NCBI RefSeq assembly: GCF_012844455.2
Contig: NZ_JABBCQ020000003.1
Coordinates: forward strand, 1 to 64,000
Source of the DNA: Comamonas suwonensis
GTDB taxonomy: Bacteria > Pseudomonadota > Gammaproteobacteria > Burkholderiales > Burkholderiaceae_C
Length of the DNA stretch: 64,000 bases
Reading direction: 5' to 3'
In this document: piece by piece, positions 12,427 through 53,435 of the stretch
Position numbering within the stretch: the first letter of the stretch is position 1
Layout of the letters: each line of letters begins with the position of its first letter
Program-made: the position numbers and the translations under genes
The notes under the pieces: generated by a model
The model's database searches: none
What the model was told of the DNA's origin: nothing
What the model saw: only the letters and a program-made list of their open reading frames with translations

Positions 12427-13911
12427 TTAACGTGAGGTTGCCTTTGGGCTCGCTGCTGCTGGAGTCGCTGTCAGATCATTGAGTTTGAGTTGCAGGCGGG
12501 CCATATGTTCGGCATAGACCAGAGCTTCTTGTGTAGGAAGTGGCTTGCCGACCCGTTGTGAATAGATCTGCAGTGCGCCTCTGACGACCTCAACATCATT
12601 GCTGTCTGCATACCAAGCCCAGTCGGCAAGGTGAGACGCAAGCTGGGGATTACTGCTGGCCAAAGTCGTTGCTCGCTTGATGATCTGCCTGGGACCACCT
12701 GCGAGGCTGGCCAGTTCTTGTGCCTCGTTGTGCAATGGCGCTGGGCTCCAGTGTCAAGGGATATCGTCCCACCAGCCGCTGTATTCGCTGACCACCATGC
12801 GACCGATATCACGGACAGAGACATATAGTTCCCGCGTATCCGGGCGTGAAGCCAGCTCTGCGGGCAGAGCCACTTTGTCGATCACGAGATCGCGCCGTTG
12901 GCCGCTGTTTAGGCCCTTCACGACCTGGGTCGAGATGGACTCCGGTATTTTCGCCTGCGCAGGCAATCTGTCCTGAATCTCTTCGGGTTGGCTGATGGCC
13001 GGGCCGTGGGCAGGAAGCAAGAGCAGAGGCTTTAACGATGCCATTTCCCTAAGCGCCTGAGCCCATTCTTCAGGATAGCGCTGGCGCCGCTTTCCGTTGC
13101 CGGCATTGGGCAGGAAACCCTGGAAGTAATCGGCACTGGCAACAATTTGGCGACTTGGTACGGATACCCAGATTTGGTCTTCGGTTTCACCTCGGGCGTG
13201 GGTCAACACAAAGTCTTCTTTGCCAATTCTGAGCGTGGTCTTTCCATGAAAAGTCGTAGTGGGGCGAATTGCGTTGTCCCAGTTGCTCGGAACGTCGGCC
13301 ACGCTTTGCTGGTTGTTGCGCGCGATCAGGCCGTTGCTGCGCATGTCCAGTTCCATCTGAGTGATAAAACGCTGCTCTGCAATGATCTGGGGCTTTTGAT
13401 CCAGCAGTGTCCATGCACCGAATGCATGGTCCGCATGAAAGTGCGTGAAGATCACCGTGTGCACGGGCTTGCTGCTGATTTTTTTCAGTGCCTCAGCAAG
13501 TCCCGGGCCTGCAGGTGCGTATCCGCTGTCTACGAGTACCAATCCTTCATCGGTTTCAAACACGACCACATTCACGATCGGGAAACGCAGCAGCCAGGTA
13601 CGGGGCGCCACGGGTTCAATTCTGAGCTTGGCGCGAGCGTCGGCGATGGCCGCTTGGTTGGTGCGGCTGTACATGCTGTTGGCAACGGCGTAAGACAGCT
13701 CGGAGCCAAAGCCACCGCCTTCTTTGATGGATTGGGCCATCTGTGGGTTGGCCTTGAAGACCTGTGCACGTGCCGCAGCTACCGCTGGATTATTGATGCC
13801 AAAGTCACCCCGCTCGTCTTGATCGTGGGCATTGGCGGTGCTTGTGTATAACTGGCTCAGCGTCAGAGCAACCGCTAGGGTGTGTCGGAAAAATGGAGAA
13901 CATTTCTTCAT
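12427..13911 (-). pseudogene. Alkyl-sulfatase-like metallo-hydrolase interrupted by in-frame TGA
   Basis: The first part (385 codons from ATG 13911; GTG 13923 is an alternative) has a signal peptide ending about STANA, an MBL domain with THFHADH (residues 156-162) and GRETEDQIWV-like late motifs. It reads SGWWDDIP and hits TGA at 12754-12756. The same frame continues with HWSPAPLHNEAQELASLAGG, then a helical domain to 12427. That continuation is the alkyl-sulfatase dimerisation domain expected at this point. No frameshift is needed. Either a nonsense mutation (for example TCA to TGA), a sequencing error, or readthrough. The usual C-terminal SCP2-like domain of SdsA1 is absent. Confidence 0.8.
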
Positions 13912-13919
13912 GAGCTGTC

Positions 13920-15323
13920 TCACTGAGCTAAAGGCTTGATTAACTCAATTGCTTCCATCGTCCATGCAGGGTCCAGAACCTCGGGCCAGGGCTGGTAGGC
14001 GCGGGCCATCAGGTAGAACAGATTTTTTTCTGGCGTGGGCAACCAGTTGGCGCGTTTTTCCGGGCCTGGGTCAGTGGGCTGCAACCAGATGTCCAGACTG
14101 CCGTCGGCATTGCGTTTCATATCCTTGGTGCGGTCGCCGATGGAGTAGCGGTTGATGGGGTTGTCCACCATGTACTGACCGCCTGTCACAAACTCATAGA
14201 GCGAGATGGACCAGAAAGCATCCGTGGGCAGGTGACCCTGTGACAGGTGCAGACGGTAGCTCTGGCCCTTGCCCAGTGGCTGGTTGCCGCCATCCACACT
14301 GGCGGCAAAGTAGGTGGCTTCTGCAGCCTCCAGTCCCAGAATTCCACCGGACATGGCTGCTGACTGTGCTCGCATGGTGTAGTTGCTGCCAAAGCCATCG
14401 GGCAGGCGGTAAGGGGTCCAGCCGTTGCGGCGATTGGGGTCTGCGGTCTTGCGGTCGGCGTTCAGGCGGTTTTTGAGTTCGTTCTTCTCGATCTCGGGGG
14501 CCAGGGCCAGCCAGCGCTGCTGAACGGTGTCTGGCAGTTTGTCCCAGCTGCAGTCTGCACCGCAAATGCCTACGTGGGCAAAGCGCTGCAGCAGCCTTTG
14601 CTCTGTGCCGGGTGGCGGGTTGCGCACCAGAGCTTCATTGACGACATCGACAAACCGGCTCCAGTTTTGGGGCTGCGGCTTGATGCGCGGGCTGTCTTCA
14701 GTGGCCTGGATGACGGGTTGGATGCGGAAACCATCTTGAACCGCATGGGCGGCTTTGAGGTCGTCTTCGCCGGTGACGAGCACGCGCAGGTTCAGATACA
14801 CATCACGCGTGGGTGCCCGAATGATCTGATCCACTTTGGGCATTTCTCCCTTCCAGTGCGGGCCCACGAGGGCGACCTTGCGCGCTGATGTGCCGCCAAT
14901 GCGCCGACCCACATAGGAGAAAGTGTTGAGGTCTGCGCCAATCATGGCGATGACGTAATACCGGCCATGGGTCTCGGGCAGAGACAGTACAAGAGGCGAG
15001 TGACCCAAGTCCAGCCAGTTGGTGGAGTAAAAGGTGTCGCGTATCGGGCCATTGGCCCAGCGGTCTTTGGGTGTGGCCAGATGGCGCGCGTGGCGAAAGT
15101 GATTGAGCGTGGTTGCCGTGGCAGAGTCTTTGACCTCCAGGGCTTCATGGCGCATTTTCATGAATTCCTGATACGGGTAGGCGTAGAGCATGGCCTCGCG
15201 AATCAGGCTGTCCAGTGCGGGGCCTTCGGCTGGCGCAGCATCCTGTGCATGGGCGCTGCCAAGGCAAAGACACAATGCAGCGGCGGCCAGGGCGCGCAGC
15301 CCGGGCAGGTTTATCTTTGGCAT
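13920..15323 (-). CDS. Exported DUF1254/DUF1214 protein
   Basis: 467 residues from ATG 15323. The signal peptide is MPKINLPGLRALAAAALCLCLGSAHA. The DUF1254 part covers about residues 40-180 (YAYPYQEFMKM; STNWLDLGHSPLVLSLPETH; RYYVIAMIGADLNTFSYVG). The DUF1214 part follows towards the end (GKGQSYRLHLSQG; FWSISLYEFVTGGQYMVDNP; DIWLQPTDPGPEKRANWLP). The fold is known but the biochemical role is not. The stop overlaps the GTG start candidate of the alkyl-sulfatase-like gene, so the two are co-translated. It lies in a three-gene exported-protein set with a DUF1329 gene. Confidence 0.88.
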   Translation of the reverse strand: MPKINLPGLRALAAAALCLCLGSAHAQDAAPAEGPALDSLIREAMLYAYPYQEFMKMRHEALEVKDSATATTLNHFRHARHLATPKDRWANGPIRDTFYSTNWLDLGHSPLVLSLPETHGRYYVIAMIGADLNTFSYVGRRIGGTSARKVALVGPHWKGEMPKVDQIIRAPTRDVYLNLRVLVTGEDDLKAAHAVQDGFRIQPVIQATEDSPRIKPQPQNWSRFVDVVNEALVRNPPPGTEQRLLQRFAHVGICGADCSWDKLPDTVQQRWLALAPEIEKNELKNRLNADRKTADPNRRNGWTPYRLPDGFGSNYTMRAQSAAMSGGILGLEAAEATYFAASVDGGNQPLGKGQSYRLHLSQGHLPTDAFWSISLYEFVTGGQYMVDNPINRYSIGDRTKDMKRNADGSLDIWLQPTDPGPEKRANWLPTPEKNLFYLMARAYQPWPEVLDPAWTMEAIELIKPLAQ

Positions 15324-41554: not shown

Positions 41555-42061
41555 ATGCTTCAATGGTTTACCACCGCGCCACGGCGCACTCTGGCCCTGA
41601 TCTGCGCTGCCTGCGTAGCCATGCTGGCCTTTGGCCTGTATCTGCAGCATGTCGTGGGGCTTGAACCTTGCCCGATGTGCATCGTGCAGCGCTATGCACT
41701 CATTTTGGTAGCTATCTTCACAGGGCTGGCCAGCGTTAAAGGCCAAAAAGGCTGGTGGATGAGCTTTAGCGTTCTGGCTTTGCTGGCCAGCGGGTTTGGT
41801 GCCTTTGTGGCTGCGCGCCAGAGCTGGTTGCAGTGGTATCCCCCAGAATTCGCCACCTGCGGCCGCGACTTCTACGGAATGATCGAGCACTACTCTTTCA
41901 GTCGCTCCATTCCAATGATCTTCCAAGGCTCGGGCGACTGCGCTGCGATTGACTGGACCTTCCTGGGCGGCTCCATCGCCAACTGGTCGTTTGTCTGCTT
42001 TGTGGTGTTTTTTATGCTGTTGCTGACGCTTTTTCTGAAGGGCGGCAAGCGCTCAAGCTAA
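41555..42061 (+). CDS. dsbB: Disulfide bond formation protein B
   Basis: 168 residues, four membrane helices. First redox pair CPMC (Cys39, Cys42) after the first helix; second pair Cys102 (EFATCGRDFYG) and Cys129 (GSGDCAAIDW). It re-oxidises DsbA and passes electrons to quinone. ATG 41555 gives MLQWFTTAPRR. A clear terminator follows. Confidence 0.95.
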   Translation: MLQWFTTAPRRTLALICAACVAMLAFGLYLQHVVGLEPCPMCIVQRYALILVAIFTGLASVKGQKGWWMSFSVLALLASGFGAFVAARQSWLQWYPPEFATCGRDFYGMIEHYSFSRSIPMIFQGSGDCAAIDWTFLGGSIANWSFVCFVVFFMLLLTLFLKGGKRSS

Positions 42062-42080
42062 GTTTTTTCGCATTCACACC

Positions 42081-42101
42081 AAGCGCCTTCGGGCGCTTTT
42101 T
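42081..42101 (+). terminator. Terminator after dsbB
   Basis: AAGCGCC-TTCG-GGCGCTT followed by TTTCTT: a stable tetraloop hairpin 20 bases past the stop. Confidence 0.9.
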
Positions 42102-42436
42102 CTTGTGCATCACACTCCCGGGGCAGGGTGAAAAAGTGATCCGAGATAAGAAAAACTAATTCTCAGGTATGTTTCTAAATGTCAAATGGTTGTATTTTTG
42201 AAACATTGAAACCTGAAGATGGGATTGAATTTAATGGTGTTTGACAGTTGAGTGAGTAACGTTTTGCGATAGATCTCTCTGTAAGTCAAGTACTACATTC
42301 TGTAGGGTCTGTTGGACATTGTTTTTGGATGTGTCAATAGATTCTTATGACCGCCTAGAGGTATCTGTTTGTAACTTTGTTCGCTATAGTTGTTGGAACG
42401 ACAATCGCCCAAGTTTGACTATTGGGTACTTAAAAT
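42102..42436. promoter_or_regulatory. AT-rich leader of the giant surface protein gene, with stem-loop
   Basis: 335 AT-rich bases, unlike the GC-rich surroundings. A long stem-loop is visible: TCAGGT-ATGTTTC (42163-42175) pairs with GAAACAT-tgaa-ACCTGA (42200-42216), one 4-base bulge. TTGACA at 42241-42246 could be a -35 element, but no good -10 was paired with it. No riboswitch class was recognised. Confidence 0.5.
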
Positions 42437-43183
42437 ATGGGGCGATTGAGATTGTTCAACTGGTTGGCGCGCATCTTGCTTGCGATGCAACTGGTGTGGC
42501 TGCCACAGGCAGTGATGGCTGCGGCCTATGCGACTGGTGGCAGTGGCAAATACAAGAATGAAATTCTGTGGCTGACCTGGGGTGATGCTAATAACCCTCT
42601 GGGTAAGAGTGGCGTGACGCTAAAAAATGGTGACACGTCAATGGCTACGATTCCTGTTGCGAATGGCGCCAATCTCTCCGTAAGCTGCTCTATTGCAGAT
42701 ATAGCAACCCCTTCCAGTAAGCCTTTGAAAAGTTATCGCCCAGGCGACTGGCGTGGTGACACTTTGGATGATGCCTACAACGTCTCAGGCACTGGAGGAT
42801 CGAATCAACTGATCAACGGCATTGTTGGTGATTCAGGTGTTTCTAGTTTCACAGTGAACTGTTCATCCATGCTTAATAACCGCGATATTGGATTGCGGGG
42901 TTTTGTCATTGCAGATGCTGAATCCATGGCTGCCAATAATGAATATATTATGGGCGCAGCTACGGGTAAGTGGTCTGTGATTGAGAAAATAGGCAGTTCT
43001 TCTAATGCTTATTACGTTGATAAATCTACACCTGCAGTGGGAACTTTTCCCAATAGTAAACAGGGTGATAGCTTTATTAAGTTTAGAACAACGAGCGGTG
43101 ATGGCGAACGTGGTGTTTTGACGTTTCTTCAATTTTCTGATTCCTCGAATCAAAATCTTGCAAGTCAGAAAATGGTATTCTAG
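42437..43183 (+). pseudogene. Giant surface protein, N-terminal piece ending at in-frame TAG
   Basis: 248 codons. Signal peptide MGRLRLFNWLARILLAMQLV...AVMA, then a domain like the CshA non-repetitive region 2 (YATGGSGKYKNEILWLTWGD; VANGANLSVSCSIADI; DAESMAANNEYIMGAATGKW; GERGVLTFLQFSD). It ends MVF-TAG at 43181-43183. The next codons in the same frame (VKGGVKTAIAIGVLVPFADF, then GDAPQSYG) are the expected continuation into the GEVED domain. So the TAG interrupts one longer gene; CAG (Gln) to TAG is a likely history. No suppressor tRNA is in the window. Confidence 0.8.
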
Positions 43184-43801
43184 GTAAAGGGCGGTGTTAA
43201 AACAGCGATTGCCATTGGCGTACTGGTTCCTTTTGCTGACTTTGGGGATGCACCTCAAAGTTATGGTTCTGCAATGCATTTGATTGCAGATGTTAATTTT
43301 TCTAGTGATGGGATTTCTGGCGCTGAAGTCGATGCCATGAAGTCGAATCCTTCGGTGCTCAATCCACCAAAAACAATTTACTTGGGAAGTACAGGGCCAG
43401 ACTCAGAGCCTCAGTCTCAATTCAGTGCAAACGCCGAAGGTGATGATGGCAGCGGACAGAGTTCGCAGCCAGGAACACTTTTTTATAGAGTTGAAGAAGA
43501 TGCGCTGCCTCCCAAAGCGACCATCAGTATCCTAAGATCTGGCACAGCTTATGAAATGAACTTCCGCTGTAATGCCGATGGTGTGAATCGAAACACTGTG
43601 GCAGGATGGATTGATTTCAACCAAAATGGTATTTTTGATGCCTCTGAGCGTGCAGTTAGTGCATGCGCGGGCAATCAGACTTCTTTATCTTGGAATCTGC
43701 CACCTGATCTTAAGGCTGGCTATACAGTCGTACGATTGCGTATTGGCACTAATAGTCAGCAGGTATCCAGTCCTCTGCTATTGCTGACGATGGTGAAGTA
43801 G
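43184..43801 (+). pseudogene. Giant surface protein, GEVED-domain piece between TAG and frameshift
   Basis: Same frame as the previous piece. It holds DFGDAPQSYGSAMHLIADVN (start of a GEVED domain), AGWIDFNQNGIFDASERAV and VVRLRIGTNSQQVSSP. The domain should end with A-DGEVED. Those codons exist (IADDGEVEDHRIQIVAPELN) but one frame over, beginning at 43771. A one-base deletion near 43774 (CCTCTGCT for CCTTCTGCT) explains this. The out-of-frame tail stops at 43801. An in-frame ATG at 43274 could restart translation but has no clear ribosome binding site. Confidence 0.78.
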
Positions 43802-43821
43802 AAGACCATCGTATTCAAATT

Positions 43822-46800
43822 GTGGCACCTGAATTGAATATTCAGAAAACGCACAATGCTTCGCCAGGCTGGACAGTAGCTCAGCCTGATGCGAAATATA
43901 CTCTAACAGTCAGCAATGTTGGCTTGACACCAACTGGACCTGCGCAGGCTGGGGCTGGCTGGAAGCCGGTTCAAGTACTAGATCAAATGCCTATTGGTAT
44001 TGTTCCTGGATGGATAGGAGCCTTGAATGTAAATGGCTGGGCTTGTACTTATAGTGGGAGACTGGTAACTTGTACTACTAACCATCATATTGGCGAAAAG
44101 GGTAGTGCTACAGCTGTTTCGCAAATTGAATTGCCAGTAGTAGTTCAGCCAGGCGCGGCCTACGGAAACTCTCTTGTCAACTATGCTAGTGTTGCTGGTG
44201 GCATGGACCCTTATAACGGTGGAGTTCCCCCCGTACCTGAAGCTTGCAGTAACAATTCCCATTGTGCTTCTGCATTGGTACCTATTTTAAATCCGGCAGT
44301 TTCTGTCAATAAATCTGCAAGTCTAGCCTCAGGGCAGACTGTCATTGTCGGAGCAAAAATTATTTATACCCTGTCTGTCACTGTTCGTGATGCAGAAACT
44401 TTGTCGCCTATTGTTCTGACTGATGTTCTGGGTGTAGGGCTTGAATATAAGCAGATTGTTGCCAACAACGGAAACTTTAGCGAAGGAGGCTCAGGATTGA
44501 GCCGAACCTTCACACTGCCAGCCGGAAAGAAGCCAGGTCAGTATTCTCTTCAATATGAAGTTGAAGTAATAAAAACTGCGACGGGATCTGTCAAGAATAA
44601 TGTGATTCCTGCAGGTGGTGGTGATCCAAATAGTCCAAATGCGAAGGATCCTTCTTGCAATGCAACCTGCTCTACTGAGCATGTCTTGATGCCTCCTGTG
44701 GTCAATGTGAGCAAGACTTCCAACCCTCAGAGTGGCACTAAGGTGAGTCCTGGTGACATCATCACCTATACGCTTGAAGCCACAGTTGAAAATTCTCGGC
44801 TGGAAGCTGCGCTTGTTCTTGAAGACACTCTAGGAAGTGACCTGGATTTTGGAGCTGTTACTGCAAACAATGGTTACTCTGTTTCAGGGTCGGGAAATCT
44901 GCACCAATTTATCTTGCCTTTGGGAACGGGCCCAGGGACCTATCGCATCAGCTATACGGCTCGCGTGAAAGCTAAGCCTGCAGGTACATACAGCTTGAAG
45001 AATGTGGTTGTACCAAAATATGATCCTAATTCTGGTGTGACCCCTCCAGGCAGCGGACCTAATTGCACAGCATGTTTTACGGAGCATGAATATAAGCCTG
45101 TTGAAGTTAAATACTCCAAGACAACGACTGCGGTAGCTGTGAAAGATAAGGATGAAATCCTCTACGAAATTACTGTAGAAGTGACTAAATCTGCTACAAC
45201 AGTTGATCTTTTTCTGCAGGATACGTTCGAGCAGGGTGTTAAATATAGTCGCTTAGAAAATTATGGGAAATTCAACCAGCCAACCGCATCTCGGGGAAGC
45301 ACCGTAGTTGAATTTGTCTTGCCTTCTAAAACACCTCCAGGTACTTATAAACTGAGCTACTGGGGTGAGGTTGATCAAAACTATGCAGGAGCAGGCACTG
45401 GGCCGGTAGATAACGCTAAGAATAGTTTGGTGAATTCGCCGAATTTTACTAATCCAGATAATCCTGTTTGCAAATCGCCATGCGAAACAACGACGCCAAT
45501 TATTCCTGAGAAAATTTTTTATAAGAAGGAAATTGTTAGTATAGTTCCTACTGAAGGTGTGGGATTTAAACAGTCGCTGAAATTTAGAGTCACCGTGTGG
45601 GTGGAGGGGTTGCCGACTTCCACTGCGTATGTTCTCAAGGATACGCTTAGCGTTGGACTGAGAAAAACTGATGAAATTCCCAAAGTGACAGCCCCTGTTA
45701 AAGCGAATTGGGATACTGCAAATACTCTAACGATTGATCTGCCGATAGGCTTGACAAAGGATAACCCCTATACTATTGATTACACAGTGGAAGTTACTGA
45801 ATCAGCTGATAAATTCGTCAAAAATTCGGTTCTTCCAGATCCTCCTCCAATTGCGGGTATAGAAGGTCCTCGTTGCGCAAGCTACTGTGCTACAGAAACG
45901 CCTGTGGTGAAAGCAGAAGTGAGCTTTATGAAAACCTCTACTTCAACCTCTGCCGCAGTAGGAAGTAAAATTGATTATGTGCTGGCCGTTAATGTGACAA
46001 AGGCATCGTTGGCAACGGATGTCGATTTGATGGTCGACAACTTGAGTTTGGGACTTGAGTTGGATGACGCATCTTTGAATACAGGTGGCGCATCTATAAT
46101 CGGTCAGAAGAATGGTCAGTCTTTGGTCCTGAAATTGAAGGCTGGGGTTCTTCCTGGTCAATATTTCATCAAATATTCCGCATTAGTGACGGAGTCCGCG
46201 CTTTCTTCTGTCAATAACAAGGTGGAGGGTTTACCGACGCCTGATGGCATGCTGCCAAAGTGTGATGCCAGCAGCACGAATGGGTGCTCGGTGAAAACAG
46301 AAGTGCTACGTACGATTCAGCCTGAAAATGATGACTTTGGCTCCGTCAAAAGTTCCACAGGTTCGTCTAATGTTGGCAATGCTTATGAAAATGACAAGAT
46401 TAACGGCAATCCAGTCACCCTGGATAAGATTACCGGAAAGGTAATTGCACCGGCTACGCCTGTTAATGGTGGAACGGTGCCTGTGCTTGATCCAAACACA
46501 GGTATTGTTTCCGTTCCTCCAGGAACACCTTCTGGCTCCTATCAAATTGTTTATCAGATTTGCGATAAATTGGTCGCCGACCCTGCAGTGGGCTGCAAGA
46601 CAGCCACTATTACGGTTAAGGTCACCAATTCGCCCATCGACGCCAAGGACGACAGCTACACGGGCAACCGTGGCTCGGGCGGCGATCAGGAAGTGGGCAA
46701 TGCCTACTCCGAGAACGACACGCTGGACGGCACACCGTTCTCGCCAGACCGCATCACCGGCACAGTGATCACACCGGCCCAGCCCATTGGTGGCGATCCC

Positions 46801-48717
46801 CGCGTGCCTGTGCTGGATGTGGTAACCGGCAAGGTGACGGTGCCCTCGGGCACACCTGCTGGTGACTACACCATCCACTACCGCATCTGCGAGAAGCTCA
46901 ATCCCTCCAACTGCGATGACGCCGTGATCAAGGTCACCGTCAAGCCGGATGAGTCGCTGCTGCGCATCGTCAAGACTGCTGCCGTGCGTACGGTCAAGAT
47001 CGGTGATCTGGTTCGCTACAGCCTGCAGGTGCAGAACATTGGTGCCGTCAAGGTCGTCAATGCCAACGTGATCGATACGGCTGCCAACGGCTTCACCTTT
47101 GTCAACGGCTCCATGAACGCCGTGGGCCTGGGCTCGGCCGTCACCTCTTCGGGGGTGCGTCCCGTGCAGTTCAGCGGTGTCACGCTGGATGTGGGCCAGA
47201 CCGGAACCCTTGTCTACATGATGCGTGTGGGTGCCGGCGTGCGTCCGGGCAACCATGTCAACACCGCTTTCGCCAAGAACGGTGTGGGTGACAGCATCTC
47301 TAACCAGGCGACCGCTTCGGTGGAACTGGTCAGCGACCCGCTGCTCGACGACTCGCTGATCTTCGGCTCCGTGTTTGACGACCGAGACCGTGATGGCTGG
47401 CAAGACAGCGCCAAGCTCACAGGCCTCAAGGCTCAGGGCGGCTTTGCTCCGGGCGCTTACATCGCCAACTCCACCACCGTGGACAAGGGGCAGGGCGCCG
47501 AGCCTCAGGCCGACGCTAGCTCGCCGCTGCTGCATGGTCTGGATCTGGGCAGCATCACTGCCCGCCAGTCCGAAGCCGACCCCGTGGCCAAGCACACCGT
47601 GCTTATCCACCAGAAGCTCCAATCGCTGGACTTCACCGACGACTTTGTGCTGACCAACGATCAGGGTGTCACTGTGCGCATGAACGCTGCAGGCCAGACC
47701 ATCGTCGAGAAATCCGGTGAAGCCGCTGCGGGTCGCAATGCGGCCCAGATTGAAGTCGAGCGCAAGATCAGCCAGACGGCTGAAGGCTACGGTGTGGACT
47801 ACATCATCCGCAGCACCGGCATTGACGAACGCGGTATTCCCGGCGTGCGTGTTGCCTCGGTCGAAGGACTCTTGATGGAAACCGACCCCTTTGGTCGCTA
47901 CCACCTGGTGGGCGTCAACGGCGGTCGTTGGGAGCGTGGTCGCCACTTCATCCTGAAGGTTGACCCCAGCACCCTGCCTGCCGGCGCTGAATTCACCACC
48001 AGCAACCCCTTGCTGCGCCGTATCACTCCGGGCCTGCCCGTGCGCTTTGACTTTGGCGTGCAGCTCAATCCCGAGTTCATGGCCGGTGAACAAAAGACGG
48101 CCGAGATCGAGCTGGGCAGCGTGCTGTTCGCGGCAGGCTCTACCGAGATCCGCAGCCAGTACCTGGGCGAGCAGGGCGTCATTGCCCAGGTGGCTGCCAA
48201 GCTGCAGCAATACAGGGGGGGGGAGCTGCTCATCAGCGCCAATGGCGAAAGCGAAGCTGTGGCCTTTGCCCGTGCTGAAGCCGTGCGCAAGGCCGTGATC
48301 GAGCAGTTGCCCGCAGAAGTGCAGGGGGGCACCAAGGTCAGCGTGCGCCGTGATGCGAACGATGCAAACAGTCTCATCAGCGGCGTAACTGCCAACGGTG
48401 CGGTGTTGGGTAACGTGCTGTTTGAAACCGACAAATCCGTGGTACGCCCTGAGTATCAGGCGCTGCTGGCCAAGGTGGGGGCGTACCTGAATGCACAGGG
48501 GGTGAATCAAGGAGCGAGCGTGGTCAGCATCGTCGGTCACACCGACGTGCGAGCCAGCCATGCCTACAACCAGAAGCTGGGCCTGGCCCGAGCCAAGGCG
48601 GTGTATGAGGCCCTGCTGCCTCATCTGTCAGAAGACCTGAAGAAACACCTTCAGGTCCAGGCCGAGGCGGACAACGCCTTAGCCCGCCGCCCTGTCCCCA
48701 AAGCCGCATCCCACTGA
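43822..48717 (+). CDS. Giant surface protein, main part: DUF11-like repeats and OmpA domains
   Basis: 1631 codons open from GTG 43822, without a ribosome binding site, because it is the frameshifted remainder of the gene starting at 42437. Order: a DUF11-like domain; about five repeats of roughly 135 residues (44290-46310), each ending in a cysteine pair plus TEH/TET (CNATCSTEH; CTACFTEH; CKSPCETTT; CASYCATET); two repeats with GNAYxEND (46320-46950); another DUF11 domain (IVKTAAVRTVKIGDLVRYSL); and two OmpA-like units, SVLFAAGSTEIR (about residue 1430) and NVLFETDKSVVR with GHTDVRASHAYNQKLGLARA (1530-1610). A surface or peptidoglycan-bound adhesin is likely. DNA before 46620 is AT-rich, after it GC-rich. 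Confidence 0.82.
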   Translation: MAPELNIQKTHNASPGWTVAQPDAKYTLTVSNVGLTPTGPAQAGAGWKPVQVLDQMPIGIVPGWIGALNVNGWACTYSGRLVTCTTNHHIGEKGSATAVSQIELPVVVQPGAAYGNSLVNYASVAGGMDPYNGGVPPVPEACSNNSHCASALVPILNPAVSVNKSASLASGQTVIVGAKIIYTLSVTVRDAETLSPIVLTDVLGVGLEYKQIVANNGNFSEGGSGLSRTFTLPAGKKPGQYSLQYEVEVIKTATGSVKNNVIPAGGGDPNSPNAKDPSCNATCSTEHVLMPPVVNVSKTSNPQSGTKVSPGDIITYTLEATVENSRLEAALVLEDTLGSDLDFGAVTANNGYSVSGSGNLHQFILPLGTGPGTYRISYTARVKAKPAGTYSLKNVVVPKYDPNSGVTPPGSGPNCTACFTEHEYKPVEVKYSKTTTAVAVKDKDEILYEITVEVTKSATTVDLFLQDTFEQGVKYSRLENYGKFNQPTASRGSTVVEFVLPSKTPPGTYKLSYWGEVDQNYAGAGTGPVDNAKNSLVNSPNFTNPDNPVCKSPCETTTPIIPEKIFYKKEIVSIVPTEGVGFKQSLKFRVTVWVEGLPTSTAYVLKDTLSVGLRKTDEIPKVTAPVKANWDTANTLTIDLPIGLTKDNPYTIDYTVEVTESADKFVKNSVLPDPPPIAGIEGPRCASYCATETPVVKAEVSFMKTSTSTSAAVGSKIDYVLAVNVTKASLATDVDLMVDNLSLGLELDDASLNTGGASIIGQKNGQSLVLKLKAGVLPGQYFIKYSALVTESALSSVNNKVEGLPTPDGMLPKCDASSTNGCSVKTEVLRTIQPENDDFGSVKSSTGSSNVGNAYENDKINGNPVTLDKITGKVIAPATPVNGGTVPVLDPNTGIVSVPPGTPSGSYQIVYQICDKLVADPAVGCKTATITVKVTNSPIDAKDDSYTGNRGSGGDQEVGNAYSENDTLDGTPFSPDRITGTVITPAQPIGGDPRVPVLDVVTGKVTVPSGTPAGDYTIHYRICEKLNPSNCDDAVIKVTVKPDESLLRIVKTAAVRTVKIGDLVRYSLQVQNIGAVKVVNANVIDTAANGFTFVNGSMNAVGLGSAVTSSGVRPVQFSGVTLDVGQTGTLVYMMRVGAGVRPGNHVNTAFAKNGVGDSISNQATASVELVSDPLLDDSLIFGSVFDDRDRDGWQDSAKLTGLKAQGGFAPGAYIANSTTVDKGQGAEPQADASSPLLHGLDLGSITARQSEADPVAKHTVLIHQKLQSLDFTDDFVLTNDQGVTVRMNAAGQTIVEKSGEAAAGRNAAQIEVERKISQTAEGYGVDYIIRSTGIDERGIPGVRVASVEGLLMETDPFGRYHLVGVNGGRWERGRHFILKVDPSTLPAGAEFTTSNPLLRRITPGLPVRFDFGVQLNPEFMAGEQKTAEIELGSVLFAAGSTEIRSQYLGEQGVIAQVAAKLQQYRGGELLISANGESEAVAFARAEAVRKAVIEQLPAEVQGGTKVSVRRDANDANSLISGVTANGAVLGNVLFETDKSVVRPEYQALLAKVGAYLNAQGVNQGASVVSIVGHTDVRASHAYNQKLGLARAKAVYEALLPHLSEDLKKHLQVQAEADNALARRPVPKAASH
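48215..48223 (+). repeat. Nine-G tract in the surface protein gene
   Basis: TACA-GGGGGGGGG-AGC within codons for YRGGEL, between the two OmpA-like units. A run of this length in a surface gene can slip and switch the C-terminus off. Confidence 0.75.
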
Positions 48718-48728
48718 GGTTCTCGATC

Positions 48729-51700
48729 ATGAAAATGAAATTGCTTGACTACACCATCATGAGTTTGATGGCGGGATCGGCGGCTGGAGTCTGGGCTGCC
48801 GAGACCACAACACCGGCGGCTAGTACAGCCGCCACCACTGCAGCGACTACGGCAACGATTGCTGCAACGACCACTGCTCCTCAAACAGAAGCAGCTAACG
48901 AAAGTGCTGCATGCGCTGCAGGCCAATCGGGTCAATGTGATGCCGATGGTCAGATGCTGTTCCGTCTGAACTCGCAAAGCTACGACCAGCCTCTGACCCA
49001 GGGCACCAGCCGCCAGTCCAGCTCGCAAGAGCTGGCACCGGATCGCCGTGTCTCCATCGGCCTCAAAGCCCCGGGCAAGGCCAATGTACGCGGGCGCTTC
49101 TCCTTCTCGCTGCCCGATGGTGGCGTGATCTGGGCCACCGAAGACCCGACACTGGGTCAGGCCGAGCTGACTGCCTCCGGCCCCACCCTGGTGCCGCTGG
49201 ACATGGGCCGCATCACCAAGCCCGTCAACTTCTATGTGCGCAGCAACTACCCGGATTTCATCGAGCGCATGGAGCTGCTGGTCTTCAGGGCCAGCGACAC
49301 CGACTTTGTGAAGCCCGTGGCCACCGTGCCGCTCAAGGTGGGGGCGGTTGTCTCCACCGAATGGGATGGCAAGCTGTCTGGCGACTACCGCTATCGTGTG
49401 GGTGACCAGCTCATCTACATCGTGCGGGCCTATGCCAAGCCTAATGGGGAAGGCAAGAGCGTTCAGTTCGACGAAACCTACCCCAGCAAATTCCAGCTGG
49501 TCACGCCCGAAGACGAGCAACGTGCCAACACCTTGCTACGTGACAATTTAGAAAAATCCATGAACGGCTCGTTGTCCCTACAGCAAGCGCTCAAGCAAAG
49601 CCTGATCAACAGCGCCTTTGCCGGCAATGGTCTGCGCCTGCAGAACATCCCGTTCTATGGCTCCAGAGTTCGCGTTCAGGGCCGCAACATCCCCGAAGGC
49701 ACCACGCTCAACATCAACGGCCAGAGCTACCCTGTGGACATGGAAGGCAAGTTTGTTGCCGAATACATGATGCCCGTGGGCCAGCATGTGTTTGATGTGG
49801 CCGTCGATGGCCGCTCCGGCAAGGTCGAGCGCAAGCTGGGCATCGATGTCAGCGGTGAATACTTCTTTGGCGTGGCCCTGGCCGATGTGACCCTGCAAGG
49901 CAACAGCCTCAGTGGCTCGCATGAAGGCTTCCTGCAAGAGGGCAGAGACAAGGACCTGCTCACCGATGCCCGCCTGGCCTTCTACCTCAAGACCAAGCTC
50001 CAGTCCAAGTACCTGGTCACGGCGCAAGCTGACACCACCGAGCGTCAGATCGGCAGCCTCTTCAACGGCTTCACCGATACCTACGCCAAAGACGTCTTCC
50101 GCCGCCTTGACCCCGATCAGTACTACCTGACCTACGGTGACGACTCCACCACCACGCGTGACGTCGACACCCAGGGCCGCATGTACCTGCGTGCCGACTG
50201 GGACAAGAACCAGGCCCTGTGGGGCAACTACGCCACGGGCTTGACCGGCACCGAGTTTGCGCAATACCAGCGCTCGCTCTACGGCGCCGCCGCCAATCTG
50301 CGCAGCAATGACACCACACAGCTGGGCGAAGCCAAGTCCCAACTGCGCGTGTTCGCCTCTGACAGCAACACAGCCCACGGCCACACCGAGCTGCTGGGCA
50401 CCGGCGGTAGCCTCTACTACCTGCGCCACACCGACATCCTGCCTGGCTCCGACATCGTCATGCTCGAAGTGCGTGACCGTGCCACCGGCCGCACCATCAG
50501 CAGCCAGCAGCTGGTGCGGGGCGCCGACTATGAAGTGGACTCCTATCAGGGGCGCATCATCACCCGTCGCCCTCTGGCCCAGATTGCCAGCGAAAGCAAT
50601 AACTCCATCACTCGAGACGCACCGCTGTCCGGCTACGAGCAGCGCCTGCTGGTGGACTACGAATACGCTCCCAGCGACCTGCGCAAAAACATGACCGTGG
50701 GTGGCCGTGGCAAACAATGGATTGGCGAGCATGTGGCCGTGGGCGGAACCTACGTCGATGAGCAAAACGACGGCGACGACTACAAGCTCAAAAGCGTAGA
50801 CGTCACCCTGCAAGCCGGCCGAGGCACCTACCTCAAGGTCGAGCGCAGCCACAGCGAATCCACCAGCGTGCCCGTGTTCTTCTCGGACAACGGTGGTTTG
50901 AGCTTTACGCGCCTGAACCCTGCCGCTGTCCGCAAGGGCGATGCAACCTCGGTTGAAGCCCGCGTCAACCTGCAAGAGCAGGGCATGACCCAAAGCGCCT
51001 GGAGCACCGGCGCCTGGTGGCGCAAGGTCGATGCAGGCTTCTCCACAGCACGTACCGACTACCTGGGCCAGGACGTTACCGAATACGGCGCCGAATTGCT
51101 GGGCGAGCTGCGCCCCGACATGACCCTCTACGCCAAGCACAGCCGTGCCGAGCGTGGCGGTGAATCGCTCACGCAAACCCAGGTCACCAGCGAGTGGCGC
51201 ATGGACGACAAACGTGCGCTCACCGCCGAAGTGCGCCGTGTGGATGAAGACCGCTACACCGGCCAAGGCATTGGCACGCTGGCCGCCCTTAAGTACAGCC
51301 AGCGCATGACGCCGTCGCTTGAGCTGTACGGAATCGGTCAGGCCACGCTTGATAACGACGGCGGCAAATACCGCAACAACGATGCGTTGACCGCTGGTGC
51401 CCGCTACCTGTTTGGCAACCAGTCTTCCGTCAGCGGTGAAGCAACTCACGGCAGCCGGGGCAATGCCCTGACCTTGAGCGGCGAATACAAGCTCACGCCA
51501 GAGCACAGCTTCTACGGCGGCTACACCATATCGACCGACACCACCCAGTACGATAGCCTGTTTAACAACGGCAAGCGACCCGGCCTGACGCTGGGCCAGC
51601 GCTGGCGCCTGAGCCAGCGCACCAACATCTTCAACGAAAGTCAGTACTTGAAGGACCCGCGTACCGGCAGCGGTCTGGCCCATACCTTTGGTATGGACTT

Positions 51701-52520
51701 CTACCCCGGCCAGAACTGGCGTCTGGGTTACACCCTGCAGCACGGTGACCTGACGGCTACCACCGGCAACGTGAGTCGTGATGCGATCAGTCTCTACGGC
51801 GGCCGCACCAACGTGCGCACCAACTGGAGCAGCAAGGTGGAATGGCGCAGGGACTCCGGAGCAGAAAACCGCACCCAATGGGTGCTGACCAACTACCTTA
51901 CCCACAAAGTGGACAGCAGCTGGCGCATTGCGGGCAAGCTCAACTACTCTGAAACCAAGGACAAGAATAGCGTCGAAGCCGGTGCCAAGCTTGTGGAAAG
52001 CAGTCTCGGCTTTGCCTACCGCCCATGGGACAGCTCCCGCTGGGGCATCTTCGGGCGCTATACCTACCTCTACGACATGAGCTCGCTGGGCCAGGTCGGC
52101 TGGGACGGCACCAGCAGCAGCTCGTCCGCCTACTACGATCAGCAGTCGCACATCGTCTCGCTGGAAGGCGTGTACCGCTGGAGCCATAGGTGGGAGAACG
52201 CCGTGAAACTTGCGCGCCGCGAAGGCAAGGCAAGGTTTGGCCGAGGCAACGGTCAATGGTTTGATTCAGCGACCACCTTCGCAGCTGTTCAGACCCGCTA
52301 CGAAGTCATGAACCAGTGGCACGCACTGGCCGAATTCCGCTGGCTGGGTGTCAAAGACGGCGGCGACAAGAACGGCTGGCTGGTCGGCGTGGACCGCGAC
52401 CTGACCAAGAACCTGCGCATTGGTGTGGGCTACAACTTTACGCAGTTCAAGGGCGACCTGACCAAGGTGGATGACTACCGGGCCAAGGGCTGGTATTTGA
52501 ATATGGTGGGGTACTACTGA
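48729..52520 (+). CDS. Large outer-membrane beta-barrel protein paired with the surface protein
   Basis: 1263 residues. Signal peptide MKMKLLDYTIMSLMAGSAAGVWA, then a Thr/Ala-rich linker (TTPAASTAATTAATTATIAA). Residues about 70-290 form soluble domains (VSIGLKAPGKANVRGRFSFS; TKPVNFYVRSNYPDFIERME). Residues 320-370 are a small beta domain (VRVQGRNIPEGTTLNINGQS). From about 400 to the end there are many alternating aromatic strands (AFYLKTKLQSKYLVTAQADT; LRIGVGYNFTQFKGDL) ending WYLNMVGYY, a beta-barrel C-terminus. It starts 11 bases after the surface protein stop. It is likely an outer-membrane partner, exporter or anchor for it; no named family is certain. Confidence 0.85.
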   Translation: MKMKLLDYTIMSLMAGSAAGVWAAETTTPAASTAATTAATTATIAATTTAPQTEAANESAACAAGQSGQCDADGQMLFRLNSQSYDQPLTQGTSRQSSSQELAPDRRVSIGLKAPGKANVRGRFSFSLPDGGVIWATEDPTLGQAELTASGPTLVPLDMGRITKPVNFYVRSNYPDFIERMELLVFRASDTDFVKPVATVPLKVGAVVSTEWDGKLSGDYRYRVGDQLIYIVRAYAKPNGEGKSVQFDETYPSKFQLVTPEDEQRANTLLRDNLEKSMNGSLSLQQALKQSLINSAFAGNGLRLQNIPFYGSRVRVQGRNIPEGTTLNINGQSYPVDMEGKFVAEYMMPVGQHVFDVAVDGRSGKVERKLGIDVSGEYFFGVALADVTLQGNSLSGSHEGFLQEGRDKDLLTDARLAFYLKTKLQSKYLVTAQADTTERQIGSLFNGFTDTYAKDVFRRLDPDQYYLTYGDDSTTTRDVDTQGRMYLRADWDKNQALWGNYATGLTGTEFAQYQRSLYGAAANLRSNDTTQLGEAKSQLRVFASDSNTAHGHTELLGTGGSLYYLRHTDILPGSDIVMLEVRDRATGRTISSQQLVRGADYEVDSYQGRIITRRPLAQIASESNNSITRDAPLSGYEQRLLVDYEYAPSDLRKNMTVGGRGKQWIGEHVAVGGTYVDEQNDGDDYKLKSVDVTLQAGRGTYLKVERSHSESTSVPVFFSDNGGLSFTRLNPAAVRKGDATSVEARVNLQEQGMTQSAWSTGAWWRKVDAGFSTARTDYLGQDVTEYGAELLGELRPDMTLYAKHSRAERGGESLTQTQVTSEWRMDDKRALTAEVRRVDEDRYTGQGIGTLAALKYSQRMTPSLELYGIGQATLDNDGGKYRNNDALTAGARYLFGNQSSVSGEATHGSRGNALTLSGEYKLTPEHSFYGGYTISTDTTQYDSLFNNGKRPGLTLGQRWRLSQRTNIFNESQYLKDPRTGSGLAHTFGMDFYPGQNWRLGYTLQHGDLTATTGNVSRDAISLYGGRTNVRTNWSSKVEWRRDSGAENRTQWVLTNYLTHKVDSSWRIAGKLNYSETKDKNSVEAGAKLVESSLGFAYRPWDSSRWGIFGRYTYLYDMSSLGQVGWDGTSSSSSAYYDQQSHIVSLEGVYRWSHRWENAVKLARREGKARFGRGNGQWFDSATTFAAVQTRYEVMNQWHALAEFRWLGVKDGGDKNGWLVGVDRDLTKNLRIGVGYNFTQFKGDLTKVDDYRAKGWYLNMVGYY

Positions 52521-52577: not shown

Positions 52578-52596
52578 AATATCAAATCAGGTTGTG

Positions 52597-52629
52597 GCGC
52601 TTATGTATCAAGCGCAATCAGCTATCAAA
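52597..52629 (-). repeat. Family A repeat on the 3' side of the GST gene
   Basis: Minus strand: TTTGATAGCTGATTGCGCTT followed by GATACATAAGCGC. It shares about 22 identical bases, inverted, with the copy at 53436 on the other side of the GST gene. Confidence 0.75.
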
Positions 52630-52635
52630 TCAATA

Positions 52636-53313
52636 TCAAAGGCTTTCAATGCTTTTGCTCACAAAGGTGGGGCCTGTGGTACCGGGCACCCAGCCGGGAT
52701 AGGTTTCCATGATTTCGGCAAACAGGGCCGAATCAATCCAGCGTTGCAGCCAGTCCTGCAGATGCGGCCAGGGCTGCTCGTTCCATTGCGCCTCATCAAT
52801 CCGGGCGTACTGGCGCACAAAGGGGCGCAGTGCCATGTCGGCCAGACTGGGGTGCAGGCCAAACAGGTAGCCGGTCTCTTCCAGCTGGTCGTTCAAATCC
52901 GCCAGCCAGGTCAGCGCGTCGGCCTGTGCCTGATTCACGGCTTCGGCGCTGTGGCGCTCGGGGTATTTGCAGCGATCGAGTGCTTGTTTGAAAAAGCCGT
53001 CATTACGCTCAATCAGGACCTGCATGTCTTCAAGACTGCCTTGCGTGGGCTGCAGCCAGCCGTCGGGGTCGTTGCTGCGCAGGGCATGCAGCATGACGTC
53101 CAGACTTTGCTCGATCACTTGACCATCCTGCAGCACCAGTACTGGCACCGTGCCCTTGGGCGATACATCCAGCAGCGCATGAGGTTTGTTGCGCAGATTG
53201 ATTTCACGCAGCTCGCAGGGCAGACCTGCATGGGCCAGGGCCAGACGGGCGCGAATGGCGTAAGGGCAGCGGCGGAAAGAGTACAGAACGGGCAGGGAGG
53301 AGGCGGCAGTCAA
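52636..53313 (-). CDS. Glutathione S-transferase family protein
   Basis: 225 residues. Thioredoxin-like N-terminal domain LPVLYSFRRCPYAIRARLAL with Cys16 in a CPYA motif, then SPKGTVPVLVLQDGQVIEQS (cis-Pro and the glutathione gamma-Glu site). The all-helical C-terminal domain contains LFGLHPSLADMALRPFVRQY. Cys16 suggests a thiol-transferase or reductase-like (omega/YfcG-type) activity rather than Ser/Tyr GST chemistry. The last codons (KSIESL) are next to repeat DNA. It is flanked by inverted family A repeats. Confidence 0.92.
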   Translation of the reverse strand: MTAASSLPVLYSFRRCPYAIRARLALAHAGLPCELREINLRNKPHALLDVSPKGTVPVLVLQDGQVIEQSLDVMLHALRSNDPDGWLQPTQGSLEDMQVLIERNDGFFKQALDRCKYPERHSAEAVNQAQADALTWLADLNDQLEETGYLFGLHPSLADMALRPFVRQYARIDEAQWNEQPWPHLQDWLQRWIDSALFAEIMETYPGWVPGTTGPTFVSKSIESL

Positions 53314-53435
53314 GGCAGGTGGTCAGATGAAATGGGTAAAACAAAAGCGCCGTGGCGCTTACTGAGTGGCTACTGTAACTGCTCACCTGAAGCCATGCAG
53401 CGGTGTCCGGCATCCTTTGTCTGAAATGCTCTTGA

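Follow-up and report, generated by a model that had tools for sequence, protein, structure and literature searches.

The gene at 42437-48717 on the plus strand of the window (the whole 64,000-nucleotide stretch of Comamonas suwonensis DNA analysed here) encodes, judging from its domain content, a CshA-type fibrillar adhesin with NR2 and GEVED domains, a stalk and an OmpA anchor, and it is very probably a recent pseudogene. The adhesin family is already known, with its parts described for Proteobacteria, and this locus is a broken member: a clear case in which a very large surface adhesin was lost recently while its partner gene stayed intact. The pseudogene is in itself ordinary; the base composition of its head adds interest. 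The break in composition within the gene suggests an exchange of adhesin heads across wide distances among environmental proteobacteria.

Two lesions divide the gene into three pieces. Piece 1 (42437-43183) ends at a premature in-frame TAG (43181-43183, codon 249), where five relatives have no interruption, and past this stop the original frame remains open for 205 more codons (43184-43801) until a TAG at 43799-43801; none of 5000 first-order Markov copies of the post-TAG stretch stayed open. Piece 3 belongs to a frame that is open from 43756 onwards and includes a DGEVED motif at 43789-43806; the frame change therefore falls within 43756-43798, where two open frames overlap and one base is missing relative to a continuous gene. 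The span of 6281 bases is not divisible by three, and piece 3 itself provides 1631 codons from a GTG (43822-48717). The initial annotation had proposed that the frame from 42437 continues past the TAG, that one base was lost near 43774 so that DGEVED lies in the next frame, and that all three pieces derive from one ancestral gene. Each of these proposals is borne out: the continuation by its open codons, the lost base by a position inside our interval, and the ancestral gene by the five relatives that have it whole.

In these relatives, found among the 52 other genomes of the genus, the adhesin reads without interruption from its first ATG for 2042-2068 codons. Joined across the TAG, pieces 1 and 2 are 46-55% identical to the five proteins over 418-438 columns, and piece 3, read from 43756, is 58-66% identical to the following part of the same proteins over 1601-1615 columns. 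The read-through N-terminal part found matches in 8 of 53 genus genomes (the window's own included), nearly full-length in six (its own, G029, G034, G044, G046 and G047) and weak in G017 and G038. Long matches to piece 3 came from the same six genomes; some match was present in 51 of the 53, in many cases only to the short OmpA domain, and a contig scan for piece 3 with six exact short peptides as query returned four loci.

Piece 1 starts with a hydrophobic N-terminal segment that appears, by eye, signal-peptide-like, and continues into most of a CshA_NR2 domain (PF18651; read-through residues 41-262, 42557-43222; E 4.6e-30), which the TAG cuts, stripping approximately the last 14 residues of the domain from the actual product. 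Directly downstream in the read-through protein is a GEVED domain (PF20009; residues 388-445, 43598-43771; E 8.8e-10) that is read in the first frame and shortened by the frame change, the DGEVED motif itself lying in the other frame. A domain search of piece 3 found pilin-like isopeptide, DUF11 and OmpA domains, the last near the C-terminus (PF00691; piece 3 residues 1533-1600, 48418-48621; E 5.1e-10), with the stalk repeats matching PF01345 (E 1.6e-20) and TIGR04226 (E 4.2e-16); every match given here with an E-value was above its cut-off. According to Barringer et al. 2023 (PMC10952558), NR2 is always followed by GEVED, DUF11 is the commonest stalk repeat among Proteobacteria, and OmpA-like anchors are found predominantly in Proteobacteria. 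The window gene shares NR2 followed by GEVED, a DUF11 stalk and an OmpA-like anchor with the CshA/CshB-type adhesins, but differs in being broken and in having a head and an anchor of different base composition. A literature search found no paper on this locus, a PDB sequence search with the N-terminal part gave no match at E 0.1, and the predicted structure of the head was a poor model (mean pLDDT 48.6).

Domains and gene neighbourhood suggest that the intact protein would be exported to form a long surface fibre, whose stalk bears an NR2/GEVED tip and whose C-terminal OmpA domain holds it at the cell wall; the adjacent partner protein may assist in this. In the window copy, translation would stop at codon 249, near the end of NR2 and ahead of GEVED, stalk and anchor, so that no anchored adhesin would be expected. 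Inspection of piece 3 by eye found no signal peptide, no clear ribosome site and so no clear start signals, which would make this piece unlikely to rescue function.

The loss appears to be recent because only one nonsense change and one frame change have accumulated in 6.3 kb, a dating based on lesion counts. We modelled the timing by counting stop-making changes and assuming a mutational bias and indel rates of 0-0.1 per substitution, and for every 1% of neutral divergence the whole gene would be expected to collect 1.8-8.5 lesions. The two lesions equate to 0.23-1.12% neutral divergence, and the chance that piece 3 stays open is at least 5% up to 0.45-2.2%, both ranges varying with the indel rate and bias assumed. 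The long open remainder of 1631 codons, which the initial annotation called odd for a gene long dead, is therefore expected, since two lesions imply only about 0.2-1.1% neutral divergence and recent decay predicts a remainder of this kind. Lineage-specific changes in the anchor (two nonsynonymous, three synonymous) are too few to tell relaxed from kept constraint. The first 1338 of 6279 bases contain both lesions, an arrangement with a chance of 0.045 if lesions fall uniformly; because this stretch was chosen after the lesions were seen, we give their clustering no weight.

Alternatively, both lesions could be sequencing or assembly errors in an intact gene. The assembly is a draft of 67 contigs, the closeness of the lesions, about 600 bases apart, might reflect poor coverage of an AT-rich stretch, and a second window gene (minus strand, from 13923 to about 12457) likewise contains an in-frame stop. 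However, the frame change sits outside any homopolymer, and a scan of the 346-kb contig that holds the window (C33), for which 400 kb from each of G047 and G029 served as reference, found few broken genes. Among 159 G047 genes confirmed by G029, 114 could be assessed in the window's own genome and four were flagged, of which only the adhesin is really broken; by eye, two of the others have a stop just before the evident start of a gene that is otherwise continuous, and the third is a low-identity, shadow-like frame. The same three artefacts were flagged when 113 of 159 G029 genes confirmed by G047 were assessed, a count from which the adhesin is missing, probably because its N-terminal part (43% identity) fell under the 45% filter. 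The reverse comparison flagged 6 of 113 genes in G047 and 9 of 114 in G029; three of these flags were inspected, the two from G047 being upstream or shadow-like, while the split in G029 was not seen again. With artefacts set aside, these low counts indicate that the window's contig is not unusually broken, and we consider error an improbable explanation. The second broken gene (12457-13923) is metallo-beta-lactamase/alkyl-sulfatase-like, with an in-frame TGA at 12754-12756 behind which approximately 100 residues are conserved with G047; it lies outside the shared set that was assessed.

Two further possibilities would leave the gene functional, at least at times. Surface proteins are common phase-variable genes, and a run of nine G further along the gene (48215-48223) could in principle support reversible switching, which the initial annotation had listed beside decay and assembly errors. 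Yet the gene lacks tandem repeats, neither lesion sits in a homopolymer, a nonsense substitution does not act as a switch, and no second copy is available for gene conversion, the genome having just a short OmpA-domain match; the G9 run is in frame and is missing from the 50 other loci compared. This possibility is not borne out, and we regard it as very improbable. Programmed recoding, in which readthrough of the TAG and a programmed -1 shift together yield the full protein, could account for both downstream frames being open and related to the relatives' continuous protein, but the five relatives require neither event, 43740-43801 contains no X XXY YYZ slippery heptamer, and TAG is the stop of 3 of 28 selected window ORFs. 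Amber suppression finds no support in a survey of 68 Rfam tRNA matches, of which ARAGORN typed 67 (the weakest was left untyped) and none of the typed matches had a CUA anticodon; recoding is thus extremely unlikely. Of the three options first offered, recent decay is the best supported. The G9 run lies in the anchor coding region, and runs of eight G in the window are no commoner than chance.

The gene also contains a composition break that had been missed in the initial annotation. An AT-rich head block (42590-46600, GC approximately 0.45) holds both lesions, and its two parts taken as whole stretches have GC3 of 0.36 and 0.38, against 0.66 and 0.76 at the two ends of the gene. Among 37 other coding stretches, 36 had GC3 of 0.63-0.78 and one 0.57; these stretches include the plus-strand ORF at 52594-53424, which is probably a shadow, as the minus-strand frame at this place is better conserved in relatives (87-89%) than the plus frame. 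A two-break segmentation placed the low-GC segment at 41990-46575 (GC 0.588 before, 0.452 within and 0.617 after; gain 152.8 natural-log units). The corresponding segment spans merely 450-530 bases around an intergenic part in G029, G044 and G047 and 1650 bases in G034, with gains of 37.6-78.1 across these four genomes, while the break in G046 (gain 371.9) reflects an AT-rich upstream neighbour. Along the gene alignment, GC3 was 0.66 in the first 50 columns and 0.66-0.82 in the anchor blocks. The edges of the head fall near codon 50 and near 46.6 kb, the right edge lying, by eye, between two similar repeat copies. Beyond it, the anchor part (46645-48717), which comprises the second repeat copy, DUF11 and OmpA, has normal composition and a mean identity to relatives of 71-94% per 100-column block.

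We read the head as a replacement, perhaps in more than one step. Its N-terminal part is 46-55% identical to sister copies and 47% identical to a copy in another family, about the same distance, and the window has the longest end branch of the head tree (1.35) but the second shortest of the anchor tree (0.036). The anchor tree pairs the window with G029 (100/99), a pairing that the head rejects (p-AU 0.020); conversely, G029, G044 and G047 form a group in the head that the anchor rejects (p-AU 0.0006), though the anchor does not reject a pairing of the window with G034 (p-AU 0.11). A single swap seems too simple, because the trees of the two head parts disagree: the first pairs the window with G044 (89/92), whereas the rest places the window outside the others. 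Around the time of the loss or before it, recombination between conserved flanks probably put a diverged, AT-rich allele in place of the exposed head. We somewhat favor a specific form of this replacement, in which the head of about 4 kb is an exchangeable cassette from an unsampled low-GC lineage that entered in frame by recombination, with the conserved signal-peptide end on one side and the conserved anchor on the other, and was then quickly silenced, leaving the anchor frame and the partner gene intact.

The broken gene could instead carry a head that became AT-rich by diverging in place. The relatives' own heads are variable as well, with block means of 42-65% identity against 71-90% in the anchor, and for this reason fast evolution in place has some claim; the relatives' head GC3 (0.50-0.73 by block, columns 50-1450) is likewise below that of their anchors. 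However, GC3 in the same blocks of the window head is 0.26-0.54, within edges at defined positions, and the contrast between its head and anchor branches also argues against local divergence. Fast evolution in place explains the head composition poorly, and we hold this alternative to be unlikely.

The searches for a donor of the head found none. With the read-through N-terminal part as query, 53 genus genomes and three sets drawn evenly from larger groups (399 family genomes, 398 phylum-wide genomes and 397 genomes from the order to which G828 belongs) gave nothing closer than the 55% of G044. At the DNA level, 42437-44600 gave only short matches in the 53 genus genomes (69-77% identity over 86-167 bases, plus one of 26), head DNA gave only short matches in 369 genomes of the class, and head DNA gave no match against plasmids. 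The N-terminal protein matched only two Loktanella plasmids, at 26% identity.

Directly downstream of the adhesin, the partner gene (48729-52520, plus strand) is intact and encodes 1263 amino acids. It adjoins the adhesin in the five genus relatives and at two Pseudomonas loci, and matches to it occur in 9 of 53 genus genomes, six of them close (the window's own included) and three at 32-35%. The partner protein had no Pfam match over the cut-off and no match to PDB sequences at E 0.1, and its predicted structure was a poor model (mean pLDDT 29.6). In Pseudomonas indica NBRC 103045 and Pseudomonas sp. PIC25 (L050, L051), the end of the adhesin is approximately 40% and the partner approximately 52% identical to the window proteins, and the two genes are adjacent as in the window; piece 1 and the first 700-900 or so residues of piece 3 had no match there at E 1e-10.

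The surroundings of the pair match in G029, G034, G044 and G047, placing the gene at the same site in four of the five relatives, flanked there and in the window by what we take to be sulfate-transporter-like and DsbB-like genes. One of these four, C. testosteroni NFYY023 (G047, L049; CP044131), has the same gene pair with an intact adhesin in one frame of 2042 codons. The broken half in NFYY023 is the partner, frameshifted near residue 1111 (L053, about 18646), whereas in the window it is the adhesin, which suggests that the pair may be lost repeatedly. The fifth relative, C. testosteroni SWCO2 (G046, L048), also has the pair with the adhesin intact in one frame (2047 codons), but at a different place from the window, near integrase and relaxase genes; within the stretch compared, only the adhesin-partner pair matched. 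Since the AT-rich stretch with these integrase and relaxase genes (L048 3306-7193) lies between serS and the pair in SWCO2, the adhesin-partner pair may be mobile.
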